A DNA stretch of 24,811 nucleotides from a virus. The stretch lies in IMG/VR virus record IMGVR_UViG_3300038408_000025, positions 1-24,811 of that record. The stretch is one strand, 5' to 3'. Of the stretch, positions 19,963-24,118 are shown one piece after another. Numbering within the stretch: the first letter of the stretch is position 1; each line of letters begins with the position of its first letter. The notes under the pieces were generated by a model. It was not told the origin of the DNA and made no database searches. It worked only from the letters and a program-made list of their open reading frames with translations. The translations under genes and the position numbers were made by a program.

Positions 19963-20879
19963 GACATTTCCTCCTCATAGATTTTTTCGAGCAATTCAAG
20001 CCTGCGGCGCTTCAGCGCAATTTGCGCCTGGCTGTTGCTGCTAAATTCTTCCGCGCGATTGCCGGCCAATCGGCGGAAGGTCTCGTCGCTGGTGGCCACC
20101 CGATCGATCATGCCGGCGGCCTTCGCGTCGGCGGCCGACAGGACGCGCCCCTGCCCGTAATCGCTGCGGACCGTCGCCGGCGAGACACCGCGCCCCTTCG
20201 CCACGTCGGCGACGAAGAGATCGTAATCGGCATCGACCAGGCCCTGAATGTGATCGCGCGCCTCGTCGCTCAATGGCTCGTCGGGATTGCCCTCGACCTT
20301 GTATTTTCCGGCGTGGATATAAGTGATCTTGATCCCGATGTCGTCCATCATTTTTGAAAAGTCGGCATGGTAAGTGAACACGCCGATCGATCCGATCAGC
20401 GCCTCGGGCGTGGCGACGATCTCATCGGCCTGGCTGGCCAGCCAGTAAGCGGCCGACGCGGCCAGGTCGTTGGCCAGCGCGACGACGTGCTTGGTCTCGG
20501 TCAGGCGCCGGATCTCGGCCGCCAGTTCCGGGATGCCGGACACCGTGCCGCCCGGCGAATCGATGTCGAGCAGCACCGTGCCGATCGAGGGATCCGCGCC
20601 GTGCTCGCGCAGCACTTTGGTCAATCGCTCGACTGTGGCGCCGCCGAAGAAAGATGACCAGAACGATCCGCGATGGGAGATCCCGCCGATAATCGGCACC
20701 AGCGCCACCTTGCCTGTCTTCGGTCCGGGCCGGATCGCCGCGGTGATTTCCTCTTCCGACACCAGGATCGATCCGGTTTCTGCCAGCGTGGCCTGTAATG
20801 CGGCTTGCAGCGCTTCCGGCCAGATGGCCCAGACCTCGGCCTGCGCCCGCAGCAGTAGATCGTTGAATTCTTTTTTCAT
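19959..20879 (-). CDS. S49 (SppA-like) prohead protease
   Basis: A 306-aa serine protease located between portal and capsid genes, as in many HK97-type phages. Residues 103-111 (LLDIDSPGG) form the oxyanion/substrate strand. Ser142 in ALANDLAASAAYWLAS is the predicted nucleophile and Lys194 in AGKYKVEGNPDEPLS the general base, the usual Ser-Lys dyad spacing. The N-terminal 55 residues are helical and may act in scaffolding. It should cleave the capsid delta domain and other head proteins during maturation. Start overlaps the portal stop by 4 nt. Confidence 0.9.
   Translation of the reverse strand: MKKEFNDLLLRAQAEVWAIWPEALQAALQATLAETGSILVSEEEITAAIRPGPKTGKVALVPIIGGISHRGSFWSSFFGGATVERLTKVLREHGADPSIGTVLLDIDSPGGTVSGIPELAAEIRRLTETKHVVALANDLAASAAYWLASQADEIVATPEALIGSIGVFTYHADFSKMMDDIGIKITYIHAGKYKVEGNPDEPLSDEARDHIQGLVDADYDLFVADVAKGRGVSPATVRSDYGQGRVLSAADAKAAGMIDRVATSDETFRRLAGNRAEEFSSNSQAQIALKRRRLELLEKIYEEEMS
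19970..19975 (-). promoter_or_regulatory. Perfect Shine-Dalgarno of the capsid gene
   Basis: AGGAGG on the minus strand, 7 nt upstream of the capsid ATG and inside the end of the protease coding region. It allows strong independent initiation in addition to the ATGA coupling. Confidence 0.8.
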
Positions 20880-22135
20880 GGCGTTTCCCCGAGGGTGACG
20901 GCCACGTTGTCCGTGGTCGTCATGTTCAGCGGCATCAGGTATTTGTCGAGCGCTTCCTCGTCTGGATTCATGTTCTCCAGTTCGCGCACCTGGTTGCGCG
21001 TCATCCAGCCGGTATTGATCGCGCTGGCGTAGGCCGTGTAACGACTCACGATGTCGCCGCGCAGCAGGCCATTCACCAAAAATTCACTGAAGTACCGCGA
21101 GCGCTCGCGCGGCAGCAGCAGCCGGTGGCTGATGGCCTGTTCCCATCTCACGAGCCAGGGTGTCAGCGAATAGATCACGAAGTCCAATGATTGCTGTTCG
21201 ATATTGCTGAAAGTGGCGTTGGAGAGATCGGCGACCATGTGCGGGGGCACGCGAAACATGCGGCAGATCTCCGTCACCTGGAACTTGCGCGACTCTAAAA
21301 ATTGCGCGTCGTCGTTGGGCATGGTCAAGGGCGTGAACTTCGTGCCCTCTTCCAAGAGGATCGTTTTGCCGGCATTCTCGATGCCGCCGTACTCTGCGGA
21401 GAAAGAGCCTTTCAAGCGCTCGTAAGCCTCTGGACTCATCACGCCGGGATGCTCGAGCACGCCGCCGGCGCGCGCGCCGTTGGCGAACAGTTTCGATCCG
21501 TGCCGGGTGAGCGTCAGCCCCAGCCCGATCGTCTCGCGCGCGATCCCGATCATGCTCATGCCCACCAGGCCGTTCATGCTGAGGCCCGGCACGTGGAAGA
21601 TTTGATCCCGGTTGTAAGTGATCAATCCGGCTTGAGGATCGCGATATTCGTAGATCAGCACGCCATTGACGCGCTTCGGCGTCATGTACTGCGGGAAGAG
21701 CGGCCACAACTCGCGCACGCGCCCGGCCCCGTCGTCGACGATCTCGCTGTAGCTGTTTCCCCACAACGTGCAATGTCCCATCGACGTCTCGCGCCACTGG
21801 AACGAGGTCATATCGTCGTTGGGGGAATCGTGCAGGACGCTGTAGAGGGAATGATCGGCGGCGCGATCCTTGCCGCGGCCGATGCGCTCGTAAGTGATGA
21901 GCGGCAGCGTGGCCACGCCCTCGGCGAGCACGCGCACGCAACCCAGCACGGCGCTGAAAGTCAGCGCATTTTCCGGGGTCACGTAGACGCCGCTGGCAGA
22001 TTGGTTGGTCGCCAGCAGCATCTTGACGACCTCCTCCGTGGTGGAGGCGTTCATGCGCGGCGCCGGCGCCGGCTCCGGCTGCGGATCCGTCGCGATCGTT
22101 TTGGCTTTGCGCTTGAAGCGATCGAAGATGCTCAT
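20876..22135 (-). CDS. Portal protein, HK97 family
   Basis: A 419-aa portal protein. ATG 22135 (product MSIFDRFKRKAK) is chosen; the longer in-frame start at 22219 would be encoded through the terminator hairpin and gives an Arg-rich non-phage-like N-terminus. Family features: TFSAVLGCVRVLAEGVATLPL, LHDSPNDDMTSFQWRE, HCTLWGNSYSEIV, VPGLSMNGLVGMSMI, GGIENAGKTILLEEG, then FQVTEICRMFRVPPHMV and NIEQQSLDFVIYSL near the C-terminal third. It forms the dodecameric packaging channel. Its leader carries the terminator-like hairpin at 22146-22179. Confidence 0.93.
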   Translation of the reverse strand: MSIFDRFKRKAKTIATDPQPEPAPAPRMNASTTEEVVKMLLATNQSASGVYVTPENALTFSAVLGCVRVLAEGVATLPLITYERIGRGKDRAADHSLYSVLHDSPNDDMTSFQWRETSMGHCTLWGNSYSEIVDDGAGRVRELWPLFPQYMTPKRVNGVLIYEYRDPQAGLITYNRDQIFHVPGLSMNGLVGMSMIGIARETIGLGLTLTRHGSKLFANGARAGGVLEHPGVMSPEAYERLKGSFSAEYGGIENAGKTILLEEGTKFTPLTMPNDDAQFLESRKFQVTEICRMFRVPPHMVADLSNATFSNIEQQSLDFVIYSLTPWLVRWEQAISHRLLLPRERSRYFSEFLVNGLLRGDIVSRYTAYASAINTGWMTRNQVRELENMNPDEEALDKYLMPLNMTTTDNVAVTLGETP

Positions 22136-22145
22136 GTCCACCAAC

Positions 22146-22179
22146 AAAAAAGGCGCAGACCTCCGAAGAGATCTGCGCC
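22146..22179 (-). terminator. Intrinsic terminator with cUUCGg tetraloop
   Basis: On the minus strand GGCGCAGATCTC, TTCG, GAGGTCTGCGCC forms a 12-bp stem (one G-U pair) closed by a cUUCGg loop and followed directly by six T (22151-22146). The wobble pair is only possible on the minus-strand RNA, which sets the direction. It ends about 10 nt before the portal ATG, so it works as a terminator, attenuator or antitermination target for the downstream operon. Confidence 0.85.
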
Positions 22180-22231
22180 GTGTGCCGGCCCCGCCCGTGC
22201 ATCGGAGCCGCCGTTTCACTTTGCCTGATCC

Positions 22232-22240
22232 ATTATATCA
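22232..22240 (-). promoter_or_regulatory. Extended -10 promoter candidate upstream of portal
   Basis: The minus strand reads TGATATAAT, a perfect extended -10. The transcript would begin near 22225, giving a leader of about 80 nt to the terminator at 22146. A TTGACA lies upstream but only 8 bp from the -10, too close to be its -35; no good -35 at 17 bp is seen. Confidence 0.45.
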
Positions 22241-22247
22241 CGAGATG

Positions 22248-22454
22248 TCAACTGTCCGGCTCGACGCGCACCCGGCCGCGATCGTCCTCCAATAAGCGCA
22301 CCAGGGTGCAGCCCTGGTTGTGCAGCTGCTGCAATCTCACCACCGCCTGCGCCCACTCCAGCGGCAGCACGAGCGCCACGGCGCGCGGCTGCGCGGCCGT
22401 TAGATCGATTTCCGGCCGGGGCTGCCTGGCCTGGAATTCAATCTCGTCTCTCAT
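22248..22454 (-). CDS. Small hypothetical protein after terminase
   Basis: A 68-aa protein whose ATG overlaps the terminase stop by 4 nt. The composition is Arg/Leu/Gln-rich with a long helix (PLEWAQAVVRLQQLHNQGCTLVRLLEDDRG). No signal peptide, membrane helix or known motif. Its end lies next to the promoter-terminator leader of the portal gene. Probably real by coupling; function unknown. Confidence 0.5.
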   Translation of the reverse strand: MRDEIEFQARQPRPEIDLTAAQPRAVALVLPLEWAQAVVRLQQLHNQGCTLVRLLEDDRGRVRVEPDS

Positions 22455-24118
22455 AGCGCCCTCACGCCGCGCGCTGCGTACACGCTCTGCGCCTGATGTG
22501 CGTTGCGCATCGCGCGATCGAGCGCCATGATGAGCGCCACAATCCCGTCGATCTTCTCGCGCGATTTCTCTTTGTCCGGCTTGATGTTGCCGGCCGGGTC
22601 CATCCCGGCGACGACGTTGTCGGCCATCCAGTTCAGCACCGGGTTGTTGCCGTGCGCGATCGTGTGGCTCATCACCAGGCGTTCCAATTCTTTCATCGGC
22701 GGCGACATCGAGGCATAGCCCTGCCCGAACTCCACCATTGTCAGGCCGTTGGACTGCAGCACGTTAGACACCCGCGCCGCGCCCCAACGGTCGAACGCAA
22801 TCTCGGCGATCTTGAATTCTTTTGCATCTCGTCCAATCTGCTCGAAGATGAAATCATAATCGATCACGTTGCCCGGCGTCGAGGTCAGATAACCAGCCCT
22901 CTGCCACACGTCGTAAGGGACCCGATCGTCGTGCACCCGCTTCAATAGATTGTCCCCCGGGATCCAGAACCTCGGCAGAACCAAATACACATCCTCGCCG
23001 GCCAGCGGCGGAAACACCAGCACGAACGCCGTCAGGTCCAGCGTGCTCGACAGGTCGAGGCCGCCATAGCAGGTCCGCCCCGCGAGTTTTGAATAGTCGA
23101 TAGGCAGTCCGCATTGTCGCCAGTGCTCGATGGGCATCCATTTGGTCTCACTCTGCGTCCAGACATTCAGCTCGAGCCGCAGGAATGAATTCTGCGCGCT
23201 GGGCATCTCGATCGCCCGCGTGCATTTGCGGCGCATGTCGTCCCATTTTTTCGAGACGCCTAAATTCGGATTCGACTTGATCCACGTGCTTTCATCCTGC
23301 CAATCGTCGCCATCATCTAATGTATAGATCAGCCCGAAGAAGCTGTCGTCGTCGATGACCCGATCGAGAATCTTTTTGCTGTATTCGTTCAGCGTCCAAC
23401 ACAGCGACTGCCGATCGTAGCCGGCCGTCGTGATCCCGAACATCAACGGCTGCCGGCGCGCGCCCGTGGCCGTGTCTATTTTGTCCCAGACCTCGCGCGT
23501 TTTATGCGCGTGGATCTCGTCGATGACGGCGCCGTGAATGTTCAGGCCGTCGAGCGTATCCGCATCTGCCCCCAGCGGCTCGAACTTGCTAGCCGTCCCC
23601 TCGATGTTGAGATTATCTCGAAAGGTTCTAATCCTCTTCCGCAGCATCGGCGAGGTCCGTACCATCCGTACAGCCTCCTGGTGGGTGATACGCGCCTGAT
23701 CGCGCTTGGTTGCTGCGGAATAGATTTCCGCGCCAGGCTCACCGTCCGCCGCCAGGAGATATAATCCCACCCCCGCTCCGAGTGTACTCTTGCCGTTTTT
23801 GCGCGCCACTTCGATATCCGCAGTTCGATAACGCCTTGATCCGTCATCGCGCTTCCACCCGAACAAGGTCCAGATCAGAAATTGCTGCCATGGCTCCAGC
23901 GTCAACGGCTGTCCTGCCCACTCGCCCTTCGAGTGTTTCAAAATGCTGAAGAACTTCAGCGCGTGCTCGGCGGCGCTCCGATCGAAATGCAAGCCCCGCC
24001 CGGTGCCGTGCTCCAGGTCGTCGAGCTGCCGCCGGCAAGCAGCCTGAATCCAATGGCCCGCGATCTGCCTGCCGCTGATCACATCGGCGATGTACTGATC
24101 GGCTTTCCATTCATTCAC
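22451..24118 (-). CDS. Terminase large subunit (Terminase_1 family)
   Basis: A 555-aa DNA packaging motor. Motor domain: ALKFFSILKHSKGEWAGQP and LEPWQQFLIWTLFGWK (adenine-binding region), Walker A-like VARKNGKST (residues 104-112), Walker B GAVIDEIHAHK with D200/E201, and the coupling motif ITTAGY near 229. RNase H-like nuclease domain: YGGLDLSSTLDLTAFVLVF with an acidic residue near 355, and SREKIDGIVALIMALDRA near the C-terminus with the third acidic site. It binds the portal and cuts concatemeric DNA. Overlaps the small subunit gene by 8 nt. Confidence 0.95.
   Translation of the reverse strand: MNEWKADQYIADVISGRQIAGHWIQAACRRQLDDLEHGTGRGLHFDRSAAEHALKFFSILKHSKGEWAGQPLTLEPWQQFLIWTLFGWKRDDGSRRYRTADIEVARKNGKSTLGAGVGLYLLAADGEPGAEIYSAATKRDQARITHQEAVRMVRTSPMLRKRIRTFRDNLNIEGTASKFEPLGADADTLDGLNIHGAVIDEIHAHKTREVWDKIDTATGARRQPLMFGITTAGYDRQSLCWTLNEYSKKILDRVIDDDSFFGLIYTLDDGDDWQDESTWIKSNPNLGVSKKWDDMRRKCTRAIEMPSAQNSFLRLELNVWTQSETKWMPIEHWRQCGLPIDYSKLAGRTCYGGLDLSSTLDLTAFVLVFPPLAGEDVYLVLPRFWIPGDNLLKRVHDDRVPYDVWQRAGYLTSTPGNVIDYDFIFEQIGRDAKEFKIAEIAFDRWGAARVSNVLQSNGLTMVEFGQGYASMSPPMKELERLVMSHTIAHGNNPVLNWMADNVVAGMDPAGNIKPDKEKSREKIDGIVALIMALDRAMRNAHQAQSVYAARGVRAL

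Follow-up and report, generated by a model that had tools for sequence, protein, structure and literature searches.

Conserved leader RNAs between the terminase and portal genes as candidate readthrough switches of phage late operons

In phage lambda the promoter pR' is followed by a short leader (the 6S RNA) and the terminator tR', and antitermination by Q admits polymerase to the late genes. Q loads at a DNA site of the promoter, its element lying between -35 and -10, and a further part of the Q module is a -10-like pause element within the bases transcribed first. The put sites of phage HK022 are two RNAs of about 70 nt with two stems each, located below two early promoters; putR lies about 270 nt downstream of the promoter, the distance of put from the promoter may vary, and the sites act on early operons with terminators that are distant (PMC9378689). 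In the Caulobacter GTA, antitermination by GafZ gates the cluster past a terminator near its start, with GafZ binding the DNA between -10 and -35 and the terminator being formed by GC-rich repeats after the first gene (PMC11150451).

The unit described here lies in a stretch of 24,811 bases, hereafter the window, which is a fragment of a virus record and an incomplete contig. It is composed of a promoter, a leader and a terminator hairpin, and lies on the minus strand, the same strand as TerS, TerL, portal, protease and capsid; orf68 and the tail genes are also encoded there (Table 1). Four contigs carry this unit, termed family F1 (the window, L085/L032, L092/L089, and L093), and a second leader RNA, family F2, was found in relatives. 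As in lambda pR'-tR', positions 22251-22135 of the window hold a constitutive-looking promoter, a short leader and then an intrinsic terminator, with the late genes right behind it. The locus differs from lambda in that the conserved part is RNA and may be separated from the promoter by as much as about 160 nt, whereas lambda Q uses promoter DNA; in addition, the terminase genes are upstream of the unit and no Q homologue was seen in the contig fragment. Compared with the Q module, no -10-like hexamer was found in GGATCAGGCAAAGTG by eye, and the TTGACA-N7/8-TATAAT arrangement is conserved but also occurs in host genomes. Like put, the unit has below a promoter an RNA of about 70-80 nt that comprises two stem-loops, here hairpin A and the terminator hairpin; its distance from that promoter varies and, as seen here in F2, there are two sites per phage. 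The difference is that the second stem is here the terminator itself, with the late genes next to it. This likeness is one of layout; sequence and structure were compared through Rfam. By this comparison, RNA-level conservation and variable promoter distance are closer to HK022 put than to lambda pR'-tR'. The Caulobacter GTA is alike in being a phage-like particle gene cluster gated by antitermination, but it has no leader RNA motif.

We favour the reading that the unit is a cis-acting leader of the head-structural operon which works as an antitermination-type readthrough switch, and give it a probability of roughly one half (0.52). The shell proteins would then probably be made only when RNA polymerase passes the stop signal. 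From the sequence, its conservation, its placement and its pairing, which is strong in F2 and modest in F1, we infer a start, termination and regulated readthrough of the following kind. A short RNA would arise when host RNA polymerase, starting constitutively at the leader promoter, stops at the hairpin. In the late phase of infection, polymerase would become terminator-resistant through the nascent leader itself (GCAAASTGAAACG and hairpin A) or through a phage factor that binds this RNA, and would go on to transcribe the portal, protease, capsid and tail genes. Even with such a cis-acting role, the short terminated transcript would continue to be produced. No antiterminator or Q-like gene was recognized by Pfam or PHROGs among the plus-strand ORFs of the contig, which is a fragment, and the operon's upstream promoter would fall off it. 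A more specific version is distinctly unlikely: that Chloroflexota phages have at least two unrelated leader RNA families (F1 and F2) that render host polymerase termination-resistant with no phage protein, in the way that put RNA acts, and thereby turn on the packaging and head operons, as a put-like RNA-only late switch with an origin independent of HK022. We know of no study of late-gene timing in Chloroflexota phages; searches of the open-access literature found no relevant paper on this subject and no description of the F1 or F2 RNAs. Conserved leader RNAs at the heads of late operons provide a concrete testable site; the F1 and F2 leaders would extend the small set of processive antitermination systems with RNA-centred examples, and they mark where to seek a cognate phage factor.

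Table 1. Positions of the promoter-leader-terminator unit and neighbouring genes in the window, and of F2 copies in related contigs.
Feature	Position	Strand	Remarks
TerL gene	22451..24118	-	PF03354/PF20441
orf68 (small ORF, 68 aa)	22248..22454	-	no family assigned; between TerL and leader
TTGACA element	22251-22246	-	8 nt upstream of TATAAT; not the canonical -35 distance
Extended -10 box TGATATAAT	22240-22232	-	exact match, unique in window
Whole leader RNA (F1)	22137..22225	-	covariance model R1, 69 bits
Leader segment GCAAAGTGAAACG	22212..22224	-	four contigs identical but for one G/C position
Hairpin A (GGCTCC / GGGGCC)	22187..22209	-	pairing kept despite two-sided changes in relatives
Intrinsic terminator	22179-22146	-	12-bp stem, TTCG loop, T6; hairpin 22179-22152, T6 22151-22146
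Portal gene	20876..22135	-	first gene past terminator; Phage_portal PF04860, E 7e-114; phrog_12
F2 in L230	647-726 and 7522-7607		GCAGTCTTGGTGTAGACCGAGAC...TTGTCGGAAATGATGCGCCCG-terminator, as in L099, L100 and L101
F2 in L099	3450 and 10079		no Rfam match for L099 copy
F2 in L101	3452 and 11572		
F2 in L100	5980 and 10040		

The initial annotation had proposed an extended -10 box before the portal gene, followed after about 45 nt by a textbook terminator. The box is indeed present on the minus strand, against an expectation of 0.14 TGnTATAAT matches per shuffled window, and its TATAAT is kept in L032, L089 and L093. The spacing of about 45 nt to the terminator stem holds from the predicted transcription start near 22225; from the box itself it is about 52 nt. 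No -35 element lies 16-18 nt upstream of the window's -10 box, and the promoter scanner overlooks the box because it requires one at that distance. In three of the four F1 contigs, TTGACA precedes TATAAT by 7-8 nt (7 nt in L032/L085 and L089/L092). Promoter spacings were counted in 80 genomes of the Anaerolineae, the class to which the host of one of the nearest cellular TerL matches belongs, with the reversed pattern as control. The classical N17/18 spacing was found 2374 times versus 8 reversed, and these counts show that ordinary sigma-70 promoters are used by this host group. TTGACA-N7/8-TATAAT was found 91 times versus 8 reversed, about 11-fold above control, and the irrelevant spacing N11/12, taken for comparison, 29 times versus 9. 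The short-spaced form is rarer than N17/18, yet it is above background and about three times as frequent as N11/12, and is possibly a minor promoter type of the Anaerolineae. In an otherwise unrelated viral contig (L088, 3036-3018, minus strand) the 20-base ATTGACACTCGTGCTATAAT, common to L032, stands directly before an ORF, which suggests a recurring short-spaced promoter; L088 was rejected as an F1 member, having only this promoter stretch in common and lacking the RNA. A leader-peptide attenuator was also rejected: the only short ATG ORF (MDQAK, start 22234) begins inside the -10 box and would therefore be missing from the transcript.

The terminator hairpin GGCGCAGATCTC-TTCG-GAGGTCTGCGCC forms 12 pairs (-22.8 kcal/mol folded alone) and its T6 ends 10 nt from the portal ATG (22135), in keeping with the earlier description; this gap is too small for a promoter between terminator and ATG, as had been argued, a point that applies to the window. 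A stem of at least 10 pairs directly before T5 occurs at a single place in the 24.8 kb window and in none of 100 dinucleotide shuffles, and this sole strong intrinsic terminator of the window sits inside the late operon. The stem ACACGGCGC...GCGCC is kept in all four F1 contigs and maintains its pairing through two-sided changes. The cUUCGg loop highlighted by the initial annotation is present in the window but incidental, relatives having AATT (L089) or another loop (L093), and the exact window hairpin is absent from the viral contigs searched. Conservation in related phages, which had been suggested as a check, thus extends to the unit, found in three other, independent contigs, and not to the tetraloop. 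In several relatives (L095, L097, L098, and L104) the gap between TerL and portal has neither promoter nor terminator, and control of this kind is therefore not universal. A strong terminator between terminase and portal could also reflect simple attenuation or insulation, damping or stopping transcription from the terminase genes while the promoter resets a fixed leaky level without dedicated antitermination; the relatives lacking a terminator fit this, as no factor need then depend on it. We regard this explanation as unlikely: it accounts neither for the invariant GCAAASTGAAACG and hairpin A that separate promoter from terminator nor for the TGTAGA loop and CGGA linker, which do not vary in F2, and a promoter with a strong terminator right after it makes a poor reset of transcription.

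The closest viral relatives were retrieved by terminase and portal. In the F1 contigs the order is always promoter, GCAAA(G/C)TGAAACG, covarying hairpin, ACACGGCGC and terminator hairpin, just upstream of the head genes; these conserved parts, namely GCAAA(G/C)TGAAACG, hairpin A and the terminator stem with ACACGGCGC, had been overlooked by the initial annotation. Hairpin A is found in relatives as GGCCCC/GGGGCC, GGGCC/GGCCC or GACCG/CGGTC, and the A3/A7 alignment mis-registers that of the window. Covariation in F1 is modest, with 11-12 of 500 shuffles reaching the score for the four sequences. In L032 (TerL 64% and portal about 48% identical to the window) the interval between orf68 and portal reads TTGACACTCGTGCTATAAT, some 155 extra bases, GCAAAGTGAAACG, the hairpin, and ACACGGCGC...GCGCCGTTTTGCG. 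In the source record of L036 (TerL 86%, portal 53%), orf68 is followed by cargo genes, some of them glycosyltransferase-like, and then by TTGACAATAGGTGTATAAT, the F1 core, a small ORF and portal. L093 emerged when all viral contigs were scanned for the pattern; its core is followed by a small ORF and then by the portal, protease and capsid genes. From these three comparisons it follows that the F1 core is conserved while the neighbouring genes change: portal identity among the F1 contigs is about 45-53%, with L093 below that, and between the window and L092 the core is 81% identical over 79 nt with portals at 53% at the protein level. The extra nucleotides between promoter and core (about 155 in L032 and 48 in L093) imply that the conserved part works as RNA or at a long distance from the promoter. 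Together this indicates, on sequence grounds, that the F1 unit is real and under selection, and by the same reading F1 is a conserved late-operon leader, previously unannotated. In L032 the stretch between promoter and core (2473-2630) could start with a near-leaderless mini-ORF, MKSLWIWVST, and strong structure is predicted for the entire RNA (z -3.9).

Only one R1 copy was found in the window with filters off, and every F1 contig ends before TerS. A search of Rfam gave no match for the window above any gathering cut-off, the window and L032 reaching chance level only (E<=10). R1 against 396 Anaerolineae genomes found only plain terminators with look-alike stems, the core pattern had two unstructured chance matches in 400 Chloroflexota genomes, and a blastn search of isolated phages with the core gave no useful match. 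Pattern matches in L086, L087, L091 and L094 were dropped as coding or unstructured.

Homologues of orf68 follow TerL in L031, L032 and L036 (TerL in L031/L036 is 84-86% identical to that of the window), and the interval after it accepts cargo genes in L031 and L036/L092. By sequence reading, and not by family scans, the cargo in L031 (2527-4422) and L089 (413-5220) is glycosyltransferase-, methyltransferase- and sulfotransferase-like; the window has none there. In L089 the cargo lies just before the F1 unit, and in L092, with cargo between orf68 and the unit, the unit still adjoins the head genes. An interval that takes cargo could have held a moron, of which the promoter and terminator are the remnant after loss of the gene, or the unit could have arisen by chance; both are hardly credible, as the RNA between promoter and terminator is conserved in four phages with no ORF inside, and a chance origin is excluded by the shuffles.

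A ligand- or protein-sensing attenuator, either riboswitch-like or autoregulated by the portal, terminase or capsid protein, would also combine a structured RNA with an adjoining terminator ahead of structural genes. The GCAAA at the 5' end of F1 can pair with the TTTGC/TTTGT 3' tail, but this alternative pairing shows no covariation and F1 has no Rfam match. PyrR-type attenuators (RF00515) likewise have a structured leader and a terminator before an operon, and F2 in L099 weakly resembles the PyrR site, its 28.9 bits being under the Rfam cut-off of 54; the genes downstream are ordinary virion genes. A sensing attenuator is thus very improbable.

The cis-acting antitermination leader draws further on F2, which is carried by relatives with similar terminases (Chloroflexota prophages and viral contigs), in the same layout and at the same site between TerL and portal. 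Its order is promoter, GCAGTCTTGG-TGTAGA-CCGAGAC hairpin, TTGTCGGAAATGAT linker and GCGCCCG terminator hairpin, the TGTAGA loop and the CGGA linker being invariant. Across 12 distinct sequences none of the 19 pairs is lost, and 11 of the pairs show two-sided changes (0 of 500 shuffles); this alignment was fitted to the model, and an independent MAFFT alignment of six members agrees. No cross-match was seen between models R1 and R2, and F1 and F2 are therefore separate RNAs of like layout. All four contigs that span both places (L099, L100, L101, and L230) have two F2 copies, one before the holin-like/HNH/TerS genes and one between TerL and the portal side. F2 appears to do the same job as F1, serving the packaging operon as well as the head operon. 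Searched with the F2 covariance model, 396 Anaerolineae genomes yielded no strong host copy. The 39 F2 pattern matches in viral contigs were mostly chance, with about seven real, and L078/L079 carry a third look-alike RNA.

The initial annotation had left the choice between an attenuator, an antitermination target and a small RNA of 80 nt. As a trans-acting RNA of about 80 nt, the transcript would pair with phage or host mRNAs through GCAAASTGAAACG or bind a protein, and portal would be expressed by leaky readthrough or upstream transcription. Promoter and terminator would indeed delimit a discrete RNA in which a conserved segment is single-stranded and a stable hairpin forms the 3' end, and the position of the unit is free relative to the upstream genes. 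However, pairing of the segment with late-gene starts does not rise above the 5% background level, the terminator adjoins the portal gene, and F2 occurs twice per phage and always at operon heads, which a trans-acting RNA would not need. We therefore prefer a cis-acting leader, for antitermination or attenuation, and hold a trans-acting function to be fairly unlikely.

Other sequence features were observed around the F2 copies. Upstream of the first copy in L099, L100, L101, L222 and L231, TATAAT is followed by TGAAAGGAGG, a perfect Shine-Dalgarno-like stretch with no consistent start codon after it. Between TerL and F2 in L034, L035 and L062 there is a promoter-like site, TTGACAAAATAGAA...TTCTAAAATA, which precedes a long hairpin with a C-rich loop (GGGTGCCCCCCTCACCC); this arrangement is also found in L078, L079, L099 and L100.
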